A stretch of 64,000 bases of DNA from an uncultured Pseudomonadota bacterium (GTDB lineage: Bacteria > Myxococcota_A > UBA796 > GCA-2862545): assembly GCA_913061235.1 (NCBI GenBank), contig CAJXTB010000010.1, forward strand, positions 1 through 64,000, read 5' to 3'. The position numbers were made by a program, and so were the translations under genes. The notes beneath the pieces are model-generated. The model was not told the DNA's origin. It worked only from the letters and a program-made list of their open reading frames with translations, and made no database searches. Shown here piece after piece: positions 3,997-27,110 of this stretch (the stretch's first letter is position 1; every line of letters starts with the position of its first letter).

Positions 3997-4524
3997 TCAG
4001 ACGGTCGAGAACGTGGTCTTGACCTTGGGCGGCGCTTTGAGCGTCTGTTGAACGACGCAACACCGCTCAGATGCCATCTGAAGCTTTGCGACCAGTGCCG
4101 GAGGCGTGCCTTCTGCGACGGTAAACACCACATCGCAACTCATGGCCTGAAAGCCAACCGGTACGTTCGGGTCCATGGCCATCGCGCCTCGGACATCAGC
4201 GGTCGCGGTGACTCGGACTTCCAACGTGGTGAGCTTGACGCCCAACAGGTTGGCCACCATGCGAACCGCTGAGTCCTGGCAGGCCGCAAGGGCCGCGCAG
4301 AGCATGTCGCCAGGTGTGGGCGCTTCGTGGGGGCCACCCACGGCGGCATGGGTCCCGATCGGGACAACCACACCGCATCCATCCATGGGCTCGACCTCGG
4401 TGCGAAAGGGGTCATCGAGAGCCCCTCCACAGGTTCTTGCGTGGTCGGTCACGGTAGCCAGCTCAGGGGTATGCCTGTAGCGGGTCTTCAGAGGCTTCTG
4501 AGCCAAGTAGACGGTCCCTTCCAT
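3997..4524 (-). CDS. OsmC/Ohr-family protein
   Basis: This 175-residue protein resembles OsmC-type thiol peroxidases, which reduce organic hydroperoxides with a pair of redox cysteines. The central LCAALAACQDSAVRMVA helix is the typical OsmC helix carrying one cysteine, and SERCCVVQQTL near the C-terminus carries the second. The strand pattern LEVRVTATADV between them also fits. Family members that bind lipids or act on other substrates exist, so the exact substrate is open. The gene follows xseB on the same strand after a 91-bp gap and is probably transcribed on its own or as the tail of that unit. Confidence 0.85.
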   Translation of the reverse strand: MEGTVYLAQKPLKTRYRHTPELATVTDHARTCGGALDDPFRTEVEPMDGCGVVVPIGTHAAVGGPHEAPTPGDMLCAALAACQDSAVRMVANLLGVKLTTLEVRVTATADVRGAMAMDPNVPVGFQAMSCDVVFTVAEGTPPALVAKLQMASERCCVVQQTLKAPPKVKTTFSTV

Positions 4525-4615
4525 GACGTTCTCCCTGAATTATCGGGCCACGCGCGCACCGAAAATTCGCCTACATATGCGAGTAGTGCGAATCGGCAGT
4601 GCCTCGCGTTGGTCG

Positions 4616-4846
4616 CTACTCGTCGCCGAACGGCGACTCTTCAATGCCGGCACCACCCCGAGACAGCGCTGCTACGCGCTTCTCAGCAGCTTCAAGGTGC
4701 TCGTGACATGTCCGCGCGAGTGACACGCCTTCTTCGAACAAGGTCAGTGCCTTGTCCAACGGCACGCCGGCGCTCTCTAGCGAACGCACGCGTTCTTCTA
4801 GGGCGCCTAGGGCGTCTTCAAAACCAAGCTCGGGATGCTCACTCAT
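4616..4846 (-). CDS. xseB: Exodeoxyribonuclease VII small subunit
   Basis: This is a 76-residue protein of the XseB family, the small helical subunit that assembles on XseA to form the single-strand-specific exonuclease VII. The conserved core is present: FEDALGALEERVRSLESAGVPLDKALTLFEEG followed by the short coil that packs against XseA (quoted here in two families of blocks: FEDALGALEERV and PLDKALTLFEEG). The start is only 3 bp past the stop of the helicase-associated gene, so the two are surely cotranscribed and this unit groups DNA-repair functions. No xseA is in the window. Confidence 0.92.
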   Translation of the reverse strand: MSEHPELGFEDALGALEERVRSLESAGVPLDKALTLFEEGVSLARTCHEHLEAAEKRVAALSRGGAGIEESPFGDE

Positions 4847-4849
4847 TGC

Positions 4850-7162
4850 CTATTCCTCGTCTTGGATGCGCATGCGCTCAATGCGGTCGAGCAGGAAGCT
4901 ACGACGCTCGTTTTCATTGATATCTAGGCCCACAAGCACCGGGGTATCGGACTTGAATGCCATGCGCTGGGGCTGTACCAAGCACTCCATGCGCTGCCCG
5001 CCGCTGGTCAGGTAGACCATCTCCAGGTCGCGTTCCTTGCTCATGGCCTTCTCGATGAGCACACGGGCCTCTACGATAGTGACCGTCGGAATTTCTGCAG
5101 GTGCTTCGCCGCCAATCTTGACGACCTTGGCACCAGGAACCGGACGCAGCTTCTCGGGCTCAATGAGCGCCATGCTGCGTGCGACTGGGTCATTGAGCGC
5201 TTCACGCGCTTCGGCCACAATCTTGTGGAGGTTCTGCCTGGCTTCCTGCTGCTCCGGGTCTCCGGGGTAGCGGCGGGTTTCCTTGGCGGGGTCGAACTTG
5301 CTGTCCGCGAGCACGCCACGAATCTCGTCCAGACGGGCGGGGTCGACGGCGTAGGCACCGGGAGCAAAGCGATGAAGCAGGTATGGCTTGATGCGCTTGT
5401 TGCTCTCTAGTCGACGAATCTGCGACCGGTGAACAGTCATCAGGGTCAGCTCATGGAACTCGACGTCTCCGCGATGGCCAATCCAGCCCTTGAGGGTCTG
5501 CTCAACGTTCTCGGGTAGGCCAATCTGGCTGTTGTCGCGCAAGAACTGAAGGACGTCGTCCCGCTTCCAGCCAGCATCCAGCGCCTTTTCGACGACGGGC
5601 TGTGTGATCTTGTATGTGTTCGCACGGTCGCAACCGACCAGCTCGGCGAGCTCACCAATGCGGAACAACAACACCGGTGCGAGGCCGGCGGGTGCCATGA
5701 TCTCGAACGATGGCGTGAGGTAGAACTGCTGGAATCCGTCATTCTCGGGAGGCGAGAGCATGTGACGACCGCGGCTCGACAGGCGGTAGAACTTCTCTTG
5801 TCCCCACTGGCCCATCTCGAGCACGCCGGCACGGACCAACGGTGCGAAGCTAAACGAGTCACGCTCGTGGGTTCGGGAAGACGCGAAGGTCTGCCGCTCG
5901 AAGCGGTCACGCCAGTCTTCTCCGCGCTTCCAGCGACGGTATGTGGCCATGAGTGGACGCTCGGCGACCCAGCCTTCTGGCTCGTCTGCTGTCGTTGCGT
6001 GAATGGCCCACAGGACCCACTCTGCGAGGGGGAATCGCTTCTCCAACGCGCGGAACATGAGGTCGCGTTGGTCTTCTGGCTCGAGGGACAGCCACTCTTC
6101 CATGACTTCGCGGTTGAGCGAAAGCCACTCACCGCGCAGCTCGATCATGCTGTGCATCATCAAGAAGTCGAGGTGGAAGGCGAATAGCTCGCTCTCTGGT
6201 TCCCACAGTTGGCCGAAGAAGCCGTCCATCGCTTCTTGGTCGGAGCGGTAGATTTCCTGACGCTGAGTCAGACGGGGTGAGTGCTGGTCAATGTAGGTGG
6301 CCAGCGTGGTGATGCTGAAGTCCAACGGCGGACAGAACGGGCGCTCTTCAATGATGCGCATGTCGTCGTGCGTGAACAGCGGCAGGGCCATTTCTTCTTC
6401 GAGGTGCATGGCGATGGTGTCGACCAGCGGCTCCACGAGCATGTAGAAGAACTCGCCATCTGCCTCGTGCGTGGCCATCACGAGTCCGCGCTCGGCGAGA
6501 ATCGTCATGCTGCGCTTCCAGTCGCGCTCTTGGCCGCCGAACGACAGCCCGAGCTCACGGTGGAACTCGGATGCGTGGGCAATGCCGCCAGCCTGCAACA
6601 GAGCCGACAGTGCCTTGCGGTCGCGCTCGTGCAGGCTCTTGAGTAGCGAGCCCATGCGTGAGGTCTGGGCGATGGCACGGACAGCGAGCTGGACCATGCG
6701 CTCGCCATTCGGAACACGCTTGGGTTGTCCGCCGAGGCCCTTGTACAGGTTGGCCAGCAGCGAATCGGGCATGCGCGACACCCACTCGGTGACCGCCTTG
6801 GCTTCCGTGCGATTCAGACGACGCCGTCGTCCTCCGGCACTGCTTGGAGCGCTACGCTTGGACCGAGAAGACCGCTTGCGCTGTGGATTGCGACCCGTAC
6901 TGGGGACCGATGCGACCGGGCCGTCCATCTCGACAGCCTGACGACGTCCGCGCTTGCGAGGCTCGCCGTTGCTGTCTGCGCGGTCCGTGCGGTCCGTGCG
7001 GTCCGCGGAGCCTGCATTGGAGCCGGAGTTCGAGCGTGCGCCGTCTGGGGTAGCTCCGTATGCACCGTCTTCACCGCCGCCACGCCGTGGCCGCCGCCGC
7101 CGCCGCCGCTTGCGCTTTCCATCACCGTCACCGCTGTCGCCGTGGATCTCTTCGTCGCTCAT
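4850..7162 (-). CDS. XPB-helicase-associated protein with WYL-like C-terminus
   Basis: This 770-residue protein resembles the large helicase-associated proteins encoded beside bacterial XPB helicases (XPB/Ssl2 N-terminal-like family, as with Rv0862c in mycobacteria). The first 100 residues or so are low-complexity and strongly basic: a run of about a dozen Lys/Arg (KRKRRRRRRPRR), then Gly/Asp/Arg-rich sequence, probably a nucleic-acid-binding tail. The middle holds several winged-helix-like segments (for example LRDNSQIGLPENVEQTLKGW, typical of this family). The last 70 residues resemble a WYL fold (LEMVYLTSGGQRMECLVQP). It begins 45 bp after the XPB stop and ends 3 bp before xseB, so all three form one unit. 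It is likely a DNA-repair partner of the helicase; the exact role is not known. Confidence 0.8.
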   Translation of the reverse strand: MSDEEIHGDSGDGDGKRKRRRRRRPRRGGGEDGAYGATPDGARSNSGSNAGSADRTDRTDRADSNGEPRKRGRRQAVEMDGPVASVPSTGRNPQRKRSSRSKRSAPSSAGGRRRRLNRTEAKAVTEWVSRMPDSLLANLYKGLGGQPKRVPNGERMVQLAVRAIAQTSRMGSLLKSLHERDRKALSALLQAGGIAHASEFHRELGLSFGGQERDWKRSMTILAERGLVMATHEADGEFFYMLVEPLVDTIAMHLEEEMALPLFTHDDMRIIEERPFCPPLDFSITTLATYIDQHSPRLTQRQEIYRSDQEAMDGFFGQLWEPESELFAFHLDFLMMHSMIELRGEWLSLNREVMEEWLSLEPEDQRDLMFRALEKRFPLAEWVLWAIHATTADEPEGWVAERPLMATYRRWKRGEDWRDRFERQTFASSRTHERDSFSFAPLVRAGVLEMGQWGQEKFYRLSSRGRHMLSPPENDGFQQFYLTPSFEIMAPAGLAPVLLFRIGELAELVGCDRANTYKITQPVVEKALDAGWKRDDVLQFLRDNSQIGLPENVEQTLKGWIGHRGDVEFHELTLMTVHRSQIRRLESNKRIKPYLLHRFAPGAYAVDPARLDEIRGVLADSKFDPAKETRRYPGDPEQQEARQNLHKIVAEAREALNDPVARSMALIEPEKLRPVPGAKVVKIGGEAPAEIPTVTIVEARVLIEKAMSKERDLEMVYLTSGGQRMECLVQPQRMAFKSDTPVLVGLDINENERRSFLLDRIERMRIQDEE

Positions 7163-22598: not shown

Positions 22599-25589
22599 AT
22601 GAAGACCGTCGTATCAGCCATTGAGAAGGGCAAGTGTGCAGTTGCTGCAGGTGCCGCTGTGTTGCGGGACGGCAGCGTCATGGCAGAGCTCACTAAGCGC
22701 GCAAACATGCCGTCGATGGCCCTGTCTGGCCCGACTGTGTCGCCAGTTCAGGCCCTGTCCTTTGACGCGGTATTCCGCGCCACTGCAGTTGCCGGTGGTG
22801 TTGTGGTGATCGTTGACCCACAAGCGGCCGACATGCCTGGCGTTCAAAAGCTCGGTGATTTCATCCGCGATGGTCAACACAAGCCGACCATCGTTGTTGT
22901 GGCCCAGCAGTACAACGCATTCAGCTTCATGGGACCGCTGCGCGGACTCAAGGTCGAGCATCTCAAGGAACGCTACGCCAAGTTCTTCAAGAGCTTGCCC
23001 GATGCTCCTGAGCTCGAGCTTCCTGAAGGCCTCGATGCAGCCGTTGCTGAAAAGAAAGCCAAGAAGAAGAAGTCCGGTCCAGAAGCACCGCGCTTTGCCT
23101 TTGTGGGCCGTGATGAAGAAGTCGCTGCAATGGGCGAGCTTCTCACCTCTGGTGGCCCCATCGTGGTCAGCGGTGCACGCGGCATGGGTCGGACCCAGCT
23201 CGCTGAGCACGCGATTGCCGCGTCCGGCCTGACCCGTCTTCCCGATTACTCCATTGGCTGGGGCAACGGATTCGACGGTCTCGTCTCTCTGCTCGCCGAA
23301 GCCTGTGCCCAAGTCGGTGTCACCGGTCTGAAGGACGCAGTGATTGCCAAGGCGAAGCCGCTGGCCATCATCGAAGCCGCCATGGCTTCGCTCACTGAAG
23401 CGACCGCCCTCGAAGGCTCGGTTTTCATGATTCACGACCTGCAGGTTGCTGCCGGTCGCGCTGGCGACTTCTTCCGCAAGAGCCGCCTAGAGCTTCTGCT
23501 CCAAGCCTTGGTCAGCAACACCTACGGCCTGCGCATTGTGTTCATCTCGACCCATCAGCCGGTTCTGCACCGCGAGAGCGCTAACCAAGCCCTTCGTCGG
23601 GTGGAAGTGACGGGCCTCAAGGGACGTTTCCTCCGTGAGATCTTCGAAGCCTACAAGGCTCCTGAGTTCCCGCGTGAGCGTTTCGGACCGATGAACGACC
23701 GTATTCACGGCTCGCCTCTCGCGGCCCGTCTGTACGCCATTGCCGTGCGTGACCGTCAAGATGGCATCAAGCTCACCGAAGACATCAAGTTCTTGGCTGA
23801 GTCAGAGCCTGGTGAGACCAAGCGTCTGTCCAAGCACATCGAGCGTCGTCTCGAAAAGCTCGGTCCGGACGAACGCCGCGCCCTGGCCATCATCTGCCAC
23901 TTCCGCGTGCCTGTCGGTGGCGATGTCCTGTCGGACATGGACATCTCGCGCAAGGTTCGCACCCAGCTGTTGAGCTTGGGTCTGCTCGACATGGTCGGAA
24001 CGCTAGAGAACAAGAAGTACCGCGCTCACCCGCTGGTTCGTGCAGCTGTGCCCCGTCGCGCCGCTTCCGACTTTGACGTCTACAAGATCATTGCCCAGGT
24101 CATGGGCACCCGTGCCAACAAGGCCGAAGGCATCGAGAAGGTCGCGCTGGCTCATTGGTCCACTTGGGCCGCCGAGCTAGGCCGCGACAGCCGTGCCGCC
24201 TTCCGTAGCGACTACATCGATGACGACGCCTTCCTCGACTCGGTGACTGCACTTGTGCGTCGCAAAGAGCCGCGCGTTGACATGGCCGACAAGATGCTTC
24301 GCGCCGTGATCGAAAACAACCCGTCGAACAGTGACGCCCACTTGCTGCTCATTGAGCTGATGAGCCGCGGAAACGCGCCTAAGCAGATGATGGCAGACGG
24401 TATTGAAGCCGCTTTGGCACAGGCTCCGGTTCCCGAAGTCTTCCACGAAGCGACCACCTTCTGGCTCCGTCAGCGCGCCCGCGCCAAGGCTGTTGCTGTT
24501 CTCGAAGCCGGCGTTGCCGCCGTTCCGAACGACAGCCGCCTCAAGGCTCGTCTCGCATCGTTGTTGCTCCGCGAAGGACGTCGTCCAGAAGCCATTGACC
24601 TTCTGCGTACGGCAATGGAGCAGGACCCAATGCTGCCAGATGCCTACGGACTGCTTGGCATGGCCAAGTTGGACGAGGGCGTGGACGCCATTGGCGAAGC
24701 AGAAGAGCTCATTCGCGAAGCGGTACGCTTGGCTCCAGAAGACGAAGTTCAGGTCTCGCGCCTGGCGTCGTTGCTCATGGAGCGCGCTCGCATCTCCGAG
24801 CTCGACCAGCAGGCCGCTCTTTGGGACGAAGCTCACAAGCTGCTCGAAGACAGCATCAAGGGTGACAAGAAGTCCCCGCATGTCCTTCTTCTCCTGGCCC
24901 AGCTGGTTCGCGAGCGGAAGGGTGACCTTGAGCGTGCCCGTTGGTTCGTCAACCAGGCCAAGAAGCAGGTGGACCGCCGCAGCGACCGTCGTCACCGCAT
25001 TCGCCTGGAGATGGCCCGCATCGACCTGGCCGCTGGTGAGTTGGACACCGCAGAGAAGGCTCTACGCGAGCTGACCGAGCGTGACGGCGCCAACGCCGAA
25101 GTCTTCGCGACTCTCGCAGAGCTGCTCATCGCCCGCGAGCTCATGGTTCCGGCCCACGCCGAGTACATGCGCGCCCGTGAGCGCACGAGCAAGACCAGCA
25201 TCGCTCGCCTCGCCTACGAGACCGAGCTGACCCGCTTGGCCGCACTCATCGAAGCTCAGGCGCATGCCTTGGTCAACGGTCCCGTCGCTACGGACGCCGC
25301 ACCGACTGAGGAAGCTCCTGTTGTGGCGCGTGGAACCGTCATTCGCCGCCGTGCAGATGTCGAAGCCGAGCAGACCGCTGCTGCCGTTGTTGCAGCGGAT
25401 GTCCCCGCTGCAGAGCCTGCTGCGAACGTTGAGACGGTCGAAGCGGCCGCCGCAGACGTCGAAGTGGCCGCCGACAGTGTCGAGGTTGCTGTATCTGACG
25501 TTGAAGTCACGGCCTCCGAAGCCGAAGTGACCGTTGCACCGGTTGTCCCGGTTGTGAACAACGACAGCGAGAAGCACGCCTCTGAGTAG
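22599..25589 (+). CDS. STAND-like NTPase with TPR repeats and acidic tail
   Basis: This is a 996-residue multidomain protein. Residues 1-140 form a Rossmann-like unit (EKGKCAVAAGAAVLRDG, VVVIVDPQ, TIVVVAQQY) that resembles a SIR2-like domain whose glycine-rich GAG motif has decayed. A Lys-rich linker follows, then a STAND/AAA-type NTPase at about 170-480: entry motif FVGRDEEVAAM, P-loop GARGMGRT at about 191 with Arg in place of the catalytic Lys, and Walker B VFMIHD near 274. Residues 560-890 carry TPR-like repeats (AIDLLRTAMEQDPMLPDAYG and similar). The final 100 residues are Ala/Val/Glu repeats. ATPase activity looks doubtful, so a scaffold or sensing role is likely. A terminator follows. 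It could be a conflict-system relative, but no effector gene is adjacent. Confidence 0.7.
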   Translation: MKTVVSAIEKGKCAVAAGAAVLRDGSVMAELTKRANMPSMALSGPTVSPVQALSFDAVFRATAVAGGVVVIVDPQAADMPGVQKLGDFIRDGQHKPTIVVVAQQYNAFSFMGPLRGLKVEHLKERYAKFFKSLPDAPELELPEGLDAAVAEKKAKKKKSGPEAPRFAFVGRDEEVAAMGELLTSGGPIVVSGARGMGRTQLAEHAIAASGLTRLPDYSIGWGNGFDGLVSLLAEACAQVGVTGLKDAVIAKAKPLAIIEAAMASLTEATALEGSVFMIHDLQVAAGRAGDFFRKSRLELLLQALVSNTYGLRIVFISTHQPVLHRESANQALRRVEVTGLKGRFLREIFEAYKAPEFPRERFGPMNDRIHGSPLAARLYAIAVRDRQDGIKLTEDIKFLAESEPGETKRLSKHIERRLEKLGPDERRALAIICHFRVPVGGDVLSDMDISRKVRTQLLSLGLLDMVGTLENKKYRAHPLVRAAVPRRAASDFDVYKIIAQVMGTRANKAEGIEKVALAHWSTWAAELGRDSRAAFRSDYIDDDAFLDSVTALVRRKEPRVDMADKMLRAVIENNPSNSDAHLLLIELMSRGNAPKQMMADGIEAALAQAPVPEVFHEATTFWLRQRARAKAVAVLEAGVAAVPNDSRLKARLASLLLREGRRPEAIDLLRTAMEQDPMLPDAYGLLGMAKLDEGVDAIGEAEELIREAVRLAPEDEVQVSRLASLLMERARISELDQQAALWDEAHKLLEDSIKGDKKSPHVLLLLAQLVRERKGDLERARWFVNQAKKQVDRRSDRRHRIRLEMARIDLAAGELDTAEKALRELTERDGANAEVFATLAELLIARELMVPAHAEYMRARERTSKTSIARLAYETELTRLAALIEAQAHALVNGPVATDAAPTEEAPVVARGTVIRRRADVEAEQTAAAVVAADVPAAEPAANVETVEAAAADVEVAADSVEVAVSDVEVTASEAEVTVAPVVPVVNNDSEKHASE

Positions 25590-25631: not shown

Positions 25632-25651
25632 ATCCGTTGTTTGAGGTTTTG

Positions 25652-25678
25652 ACGGTCACCAGTGGTGGCCGTTTTTTT
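25652..25678 (+). terminator. Rho-independent terminator of the STAND-like gene
   Basis: ACGGTCACC-AGT-GGTGGCCGT forms a 9-bp stem (one T-G pair) with a 3-base loop, followed at once by seven T residues. It lies 63 bases past the stop of the STAND-like gene and before the CYTH-HD gene, so the two are separate transcription units. Confidence 0.9.
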
Positions 25679-25744
25679 GTGTGATGGTCTGCGAAACCTG
25701 ACAGCCGATGGCTGGATGTGATGGACTAGGACAGTGAGGACGCA

Positions 25745-26815
25745 ATGACCGACCAGCTGAAGTACGGACGAATCGAACGAGAACGTCGCTGGTTGCTGCG
25801 TGAGCTGCCGTCTGTGGAGTGGGATCGCAGTGTGGCGTGCGTCGACCGCTACGTCACCGGAACACGCCTGCGCCTTCGGCAGATGACCGAGGCCGACGGA
25901 AGCGTGGTGTACAAGCTAGCGCGCAAGCTTCCGCCTCAGTCACCGGGTGTCGGCGTCATGGGCAACCTGTACTTGGCTGCCAACGAGCACCAACTGTTGC
26001 TGGATCTCCCCGCTGCAGTGGTTCAAAAGCAGATGTACTTCACCGGCGACTGGCGGGTAGATGTCTACGGTGGGGCGCTCGATGGGCTGATCACCGCTGA
26101 GATCGAGTGTGACGATGCCGCGCGGTTAGCCGAGCTAGAGCCGTCATTTTCGGTGGTCCGCGACGTCACCGCAGATCCCAACTTCAGCGGCGCTGCGCTC
26201 GCCAAACGGGCTGCCCCGCCTCTTGAGGCGCTGACCAACGGCTGGCTCTCGGCAGTGGAGTTTACTGAGACCCGGCAGGCGCTCGCTGAGCTTCCTGACA
26301 CCGTGGAACATGCGGCGGCATGGATGGTCACACTGCATCGGCATCAGGCGGAACGACACGACGGTCGACCCTACCTGTCCCATCCGGCTGAAGTGGCCAT
26401 GCGTGTGGCCCAGTGGGGCGGGGACGATGCGCAGATTGCGGCGGCCCTCCTACACGATGCGCTGGAGGACCAAGCCGAACGGATGGCGCCAGAGGGTGAT
26501 GCTGCGGGGGTCCTTCAAGCGTACATGGGACCCGAGGTGCGTCGTCTCGTTCAGGCGCTGACCCATCCCAGCGGTGCCAAGGGATACTTGGCGTACATCC
26601 AGTCGCTACCGCCGCGTGCACTGGAGATTAAGGTTGCCGACTTGTCGACGAACGCCCTGCGTGTCGACCACGTCACCGACGACGCCCGACGCGACTACCT
26701 GACGCGAAAGTATGCATCCACCATGTGCTGGCTTGTCGGTCGGATGGACGGGCACCCCGCTCAGCCGTCGTTTCAAGCGGCTGTAGACCACACCTTCGGC
26801 GCCATCACTCGCTAG
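25745..26815 (+). CDS. CYTH triphosphate-tunnel domain fused to SpoT/MESH1-like HD hydrolase
   Basis: This is a 356-residue cytoplasmic fusion. Residues 1-155 are CYTH: Glu11 and Glu13 in RIERERRWLL, the basic set R41/R43/R45 in TRLRLRQ, VYKLARK, and Glu119/Glu121 in TAEIEC. These residues line the tunnel that binds triphosphates in thiamine triphosphatase, class IV cyclase and inorganic triphosphatases. Residues 185-340 are an HD hydrolase of the (p)ppGpp type: HRHQAERHDGRPYLSHP, ALLHDALED (HD at 237-238) and VADLSTN (Asp299, Asn303). Both active sites appear complete. It may hydrolyse a triphosphate-bearing nucleotide or alarmone; the joint substrate is unknown. Its 3' end overlaps the convergent UPF0045 gene by 11 bp. 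Confidence 0.85.
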   Translation: MTDQLKYGRIERERRWLLRELPSVEWDRSVACVDRYVTGTRLRLRQMTEADGSVVYKLARKLPPQSPGVGVMGNLYLAANEHQLLLDLPAAVVQKQMYFTGDWRVDVYGGALDGLITAEIECDDAARLAELEPSFSVVRDVTADPNFSGAALAKRAAPPLEALTNGWLSAVEFTETRQALAELPDTVEHAAAWMVTLHRHQAERHDGRPYLSHPAEVAMRVAQWGGDDAQIAAALLHDALEDQAERMAPEGDAAGVLQAYMGPEVRRLVQALTHPSGAKGYLAYIQSLPPRALEIKVADLSTNALRVDHVTDDARRDYLTRKYASTMCWLVGRMDGHPAQPSFQAAVDHTFGAITR

Positions 26816-27110
26816 CGAGTCGTCGGTTCACACTGTCGATCTTGTCTTGGGCGGACTGAGTCTTGTCCGTGCGTGTGCCGACCTTGAGAGTGCTGTGAAC
26901 GCGTGGTGCGCCCATGGCATGGACCTGGGTGTGGCACTGCTTTACGGCTGCCATGACCGCGTCCCACTCGCCTTCGATGGTTGTTCCATACGCGTGCATA
27001 GCATGGGTCAACTTGGCTTCTTTCAGTACACGTTGGCACGCGGCGACGTATTTCCCAACGGACGTACCCACTCCAATCGGAATCACACATAGGTCTACGA
27101 TGACGTGCAC
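26805..27110 (-). CDS. UPF0045 thiamine-binding-type protein
   Basis: This is a 101-residue protein of the MTH1187/YkoF-like family, small ferredoxin-fold proteins that bind thiamine or its pyrimidine moiety. Family features are VIVDLCVIPIGVGTSVGKYV, YGTTIEGEWDAVMAAVKQCH and a basic HSTLKVGTRTDK. The start is GTG 27108-27110 with GGAGG five bases upstream; the ATG inside that region is out of frame. It is convergent with the CYTH-HD gene and overlaps its last 11 bases. Because CYTH enzymes include thiamine triphosphatase, a shared link to thiamine phosphates is possible but unproven. Confidence 0.87.
   Translation of the reverse strand: MHVIVDLCVIPIGVGTSVGKYVAACQRVLKEAKLTHAMHAYGTTIEGEWDAVMAAVKQCHTQVHAMGAPRVHSTLKVGTRTDKTQSAQDKIDSVNRRLASE

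Follow-up and report, generated by a model that had tools for sequence, protein, structure and literature searches.

The fusion gene and its surroundings

The window (the whole 64,000-nucleotide stretch of DNA that was analyzed) carries a gene whose product joins an N-terminal CYTH, or triphosphate tunnel, domain to a C-terminal HD domain (Table 1). Its reading frame begins with ATG, with an AGGA element at 25737–25740, four bases 5′ of the start, and its codon-position GC content resembles that of the adjoining genes, with the same signature on either side of the domain junction (0.70/0.45/0.73 vs 0.74/0.48/0.70). Because this signature is equal on both sides and neighbor-like, the fusion is apparently a single coding frame with no frame-shift artifact; the CYTH–HD fusion gene is real.

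Table 1. Features of the locus, with positions counted along the window
Feature	Position	Strand	Basis
CYTH–HD fusion gene, 356 aa	25745..26815	+	open frame, AGGA ribosome-binding site, uniform codon-position GC
CYTH / triphosphate tunnel domain, residues about 9–160	25769..26224	+	subfamily profile, AlphaFold2 model, residue mapping
CYTH-domain residues mapped: E11, E13, R15, Y36, R43, R45, K95, M97, D106, E119, E121			
Small-alarmone-hydrolase-like HD domain, residues about 187–335	26303..26749	+	PF13328, AlphaFold2 model, residue mapping
HD-domain residues mapped: Y210, H213, H237, D238, E241, D242, D299, N303			
Terminator-like hairpin and T run, behind upstream TPR gene	25651..25673	+	consensus scan only
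UPF0045 / MTH1187-type thiamine-binding-family gene, GTG start	26805..27110	−	PF01910, TIGR00106; start set by homologues

Directly 5′ of the fusion gene, positions 22599–25589 encode a protein of 996 aa that contains several TPR repeats and matches AAA_16 weakly. The terminator-like hairpin behind it weakly suggests that the fusion gene is transcribed separately (one such element was found in the scanned stretch vs 1.1 expected by chance). At the other end, the UPF0045 gene (PF01910, 119.9 bits, E 4.5e-35; TIGR00106, 124.9 bits, E 1.5e-36; both over cut-off) lies tail to tail with the fusion gene, and the 11 bp overlap described in an earlier note on this DNA was confirmed at 26805–26815. A 12-bp perfect palindrome at this overlap (CTCGCTAGCGAG, 26808–26819) contains the fusion gene's stop codon. 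Since the two genes are convergent, UPF0045 is not co-transcribed with the fusion; its start lies 93 bp from that of a divergent gene encoding a DUF4932 protein (PF16286, 27204–28664), so that its promoter region would be common with the latter and not with the fusion. A PADLOC search returned nothing.

Fold and residues of the two halves

The two halves were folded separately (MAFFT had put CYTH rows onto the HD region), and both AlphaFold2 predictions drew on alignments of canonical CYTH and HD sequences. The HD half is recognized by Pfam as HD_4 (PF13328, 45.1 bits vs a cut-off of 27.2), and its sequence matches in the PDB are RSH proteins, small alarmone hydrolases (SAHs) and MESH1. Its model (pLDDT 83.2) superimposes by VIA-align on MESH1 (Z 20.6), RelH (19.5) and the P. 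aeruginosa SAH (19.3), and scores far lower against other HD hydrolases (YpgQ, Z 11.4; YfbR, Z 8.5). The metal ligands H213, H237, D238 and D299 and the catalytic E241–D242 pair are all present, each invariant in 53/53 aligned sequences, and N303 is present as well. Placement of the Arg–Lys pair of the α2/α3 loop (R44–K45 in RelSeq numbering) depends on the alignment: MAFFT pairs E203–R204 with it, and a gapless reading against long RSHs makes R204 the R44 equivalent, with His in place of K45 (R204–H205). R44 of this loop is essential in RelSeq (PMC13299517), and the doubtful retention of the pair counts against the reading favored below. Taken from sequence and model, the assignment of the HD half as an alarmone hydrolase is likely.

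The CYTH half draws no Pfam or NCBIfam call at E up to 1. A PDB search with a subfamily profile that includes the fusion protein retrieves tripolyphosphatase NE1496 at E 7e-12, and the model of this half (pLDDT 84.8) has the eight-stranded tunnel fold, aligning with NE1496 over 136 residues (VIA-align Z 15.2, rmsd 2.6), with other TTMs at Z 10–12 and with mouse and human thiamine triphosphatases at Z 6–8. We mapped its residues through an alignment of 61 CYTH sequences, using NE1496 numbering for comparison: E11, E13, Y36, R43, R45, K95, D106, E119 and E121 correspond to NE1496 E4, E6, Y28, R39, R41, K85, D101, E114 and E116, and the counterpart of K52 is a Lys (K57 or K61). The metal-binding ExE of the C-terminal strand (E119, E121) is conserved in 61/61 sequences. 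Two positions diverge. The hallmark ExExK reads ExExR (E11, E13, R15; NE1496 K8 becomes R15), a change shared by every subfamily relative whose sequence spans the motif (four of four), and the equivalent of NE1496 R87 is Met97, a position that holds Arg in 60 of the 61 aligned sequences and Met in no other row.

Since the sequence departs from a strict ExExK definition, our claim is one of homology and a common fold, the motif being divergent, and not of canonical CYTH membership; by profile and model, the CYTH half belongs to a divergent tunnel subfamily overlooked by Pfam. The tunnel probably binds triphosphate, judging from the residues retained, and turnover may be slow; ExExR together with Met97 makes a weakened tunnel likely, and no R87 mutant of NE1496 was found in the literature searched. 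A class IV adenylyl cyclase (CyaB) was considered and rejected: these enzymes are defined by HFxxxxExExK (PMC8233210), and the residues before E11 (MTDQLKYGRI) lack the HF. Thiamine triphosphatases are in turn defined by WxRxR (PMC8233210), which reads RLRLR in the fusion, with Arg41 at the position of the stacking Trp. The earlier note had placed a CYTH domain and a (p)ppGpp-hydrolase-type HD domain in one protein, and HD_4, the NE1496 profile match and both models bear this out, the models supporting the folds and the alignments the key residues; it had also called both sets of residues intact, which holds for the metal ligands and ED pair of the HD half and is too strong for the tunnel, given ExExR and Met97.

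Occurrence of the fusion and of its parts

The fusion occurs in one of 379 genomes sampled from the same phylum, namely this one, and no further copy was found in 187 relatives, in the phage collection or in viral contigs; the plasmid collection contained no place covering 80% of the fusion protein, and a scan of genome contigs with peptide patterns that catch close relatives only returned one long RSH and no fusion. Both halves occur as stand-alone proteins in relatives. Stand-alone members of the CYTH subfamily come from five further genomes of the phylum (G014, G068, G273, G282 and G296). Its closest member, at 54%, lies on the minus strand at about 4493–4860 of G014:C93 (L064); no frame there encodes the N-terminal strand that bears ExEx, and by its sequence this CYTH is a truncated or decaying copy.

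The nearest stand-alone relative of the HD half is a 232-aa protein from the same order (L004, 44%). HD homologues on Rhodococcus and Prescottella plasmids are each encoded by a gene that overlaps one for a RelA_SpoT-like protein, which speaks for the alarmone reading of the HD half, the RelA_SpoT matches being weak (E 9e-4 and 3e-4, below the Pfam cut-off). At both plasmid loci (L070, 4124–5351; L071, 2995–4228) the small HD hydrolase gene overlaps its RelA_SpoT-similar partner by 8 bp, an arrangement that, as far as sequence goes, resembles a plasmid-borne actinobacterial pair of hydrolase and synthetase with a toxin–antitoxin-like layout.

The genome that carries the fusion also encodes a long RSH (720-aa frame), a small alarmone synthetase (227-aa frame) and PPK1, so that alarmones and polyphosphate are likely made and substrates for both halves are plausible. 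The small synthetase (G000:C7:261314–261640) has no HD or CYTH gene in the 3.3 kb examined around it.

UPF0045 genes are present in 9 of 58 relatives, with neighbors that vary between genomes, and none is present in G014, the genome with the closest CYTH. The examined surroundings of eight UPF0045 genes in relatives contained no CYTH or HD gene, nor was UPF0045 seen near CYTH relatives at the loci examined. The earlier note had proposed looking at the neighbors of CYTH–HD fusions; UPF0045 stood beside CYTH or HD in no relative locus examined, and we judge it to be an unrelated convergent neighbor outside the system.

Functional readings and comparison with known systems

We favor, at a probability of about one half, a two-domain phosphohydrolase in which the HD half cleaves 3′-phosphorylated nucleotides and the tunnel acts as a weakened triphosphatase or as a ligand sensor. 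Such a protein would have come from fusion of two families that otherwise stand alone. The metal of the HD family is Mn2+, and in the HD half it would be bound by H213, H237, D238 and D299, with E241 and D242 used to remove nucleotide 3′-phosphates. The substrate would most likely be (p)ppGpp/(p)ppApp, or possibly NADPH or another 3′-phosphonucleotide, as with MESH1 and promiscuous bacterial SAHs; NADPH is also cleaved by MESH1-type enzymes (PMC9765508). The N-terminal tunnel would bind a linear triphosphate (PPPi or a 5′-triphosphate end) with Mg2+/Mn2+; as it has ExExR and lacks an Arg at the R87 position, it would likely either cleave tripolyphosphate weakly or sense a ligand on behalf of the HD half. 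We judge the HD half to be the main catalyst and the tunnel its triphosphate-binding partner; the substrates, the weakness of the tunnel and any coupling of the halves are what we infer. Regulation of the HD half by the tunnel would make the protein a direct physical link from triphosphate levels to alarmone removal and assign a role to an ExExR CYTH subfamily that is unannotated and missed by Pfam. A stronger version, in which a tunnel without turnover senses tripolyphosphate or pppN and switches the attached alarmone hydrolase, is rather unlikely; if true, one protein would connect the stringent response with phosphate status.

The retained glutamates (E11, E13, E119, E121) and basic residues (R43, R45, K95), NE1496 as nearest structure and the prevalence of ExExR among the subfamily relatives covering the motif would also suit two independent, fully active enzymes, an ordinary tripolyphosphatase and an ordinary small alarmone hydrolase that would both remove phosphate compounds during stress without allosteric coupling. 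We regard this reading as possible but doubtful, as it meets a Met where 60 of 61 CYTH sequences have Arg, and halves acting separately would amount to a minor two-in-one clean-up enzyme. The same Met97, together with ExExR, the silence of Pfam and the lost ExEx strand of the G014 relative, could instead mark the CYTH half as a decaying passenger or a purely structural element beside an HD half that works alone; with all other tunnel residues kept and a normal codon-position signature, this is quite improbable. Marginally less credible still is a two-ended pppGpp degrader, whose tunnel would trim the 5′-triphosphate in the manner of GppA and whose HD half would remove the 3′-pyrophosphate of the same molecule: the domain logic, the RSH and small synthetase in the genome and the known fusions of CYTH domains to exopolyphosphatases of the GppA family (PMC8233210) speak for it, but characterized bacterial TTMs prefer PPPi, and YgiF leaves GTP and ATP uncleaved (PMC3440374). 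The suggestion in the earlier note that the fusion and the UPF0045 protein form a module for breaking down thiamine triphosphate or adenosine thiamine triphosphate, drawn from adjacency in one genome and from family names, is very unlikely, given Arg41 for the ThTPase Trp, Z 6–8 against mouse and human ThTPase vs 15 against NE1496, the convergent orientation, a neighborhood not common to relatives and a G014 genome without UPF0045. The other suggestion of the note, a link between alarmone and triphosphate turnover, is possible.

Returning to the two-domain phosphohydrolase, its architecture is known in kind: PMC8233210 cites fusions of CYTH to HD hydrolases as already described and credits them to Iyer & Aravind (2002), and as represented by that citation they likewise hold a CYTH domain and an HD hydrolase in one polypeptide, so that this type of fusion has a precedent there and is not in itself a new idea. 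The present protein is set apart by its ExExR subfamily, its SAH-like HD domain and the Arg-to-Met change; our literature search found no paper combining CYTH or TTM with alarmone function. Compared with NE1496/NeuTTM (PDB 3typ, 2fbl), the fusion shares the tunnel fold, the conserved residues from E4 to E116 listed above and a Lys for K52, and differs in K8 (R15), in R87 (M97) and in its attached HD domain, at about 25% identity. With MESH1 and bacterial SAHs (PDB 3nr1, 5vxa, 7qoc, 6yvc) it has in common the HD fold (Z 19–21), the metal ligands, the ED pair and the Asn, whereas its α2/α3-loop R–K pair is not clearly kept and a CYTH domain is attached (20–26% identity). Mouse and human thiamine triphosphatases (PDB 5a64, 5a65, 3bhd, 3tvl) have the same CYTH superfamily fold at the lower Z scores given above, and, unlike them, the fusion lacks the Trp of WxRxR. 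Like YgiF, finally, it couples a CYTH tripolyphosphatase domain to a C-terminal helical partner, which in YgiF is a CHAD domain and here is an HD hydrolase.
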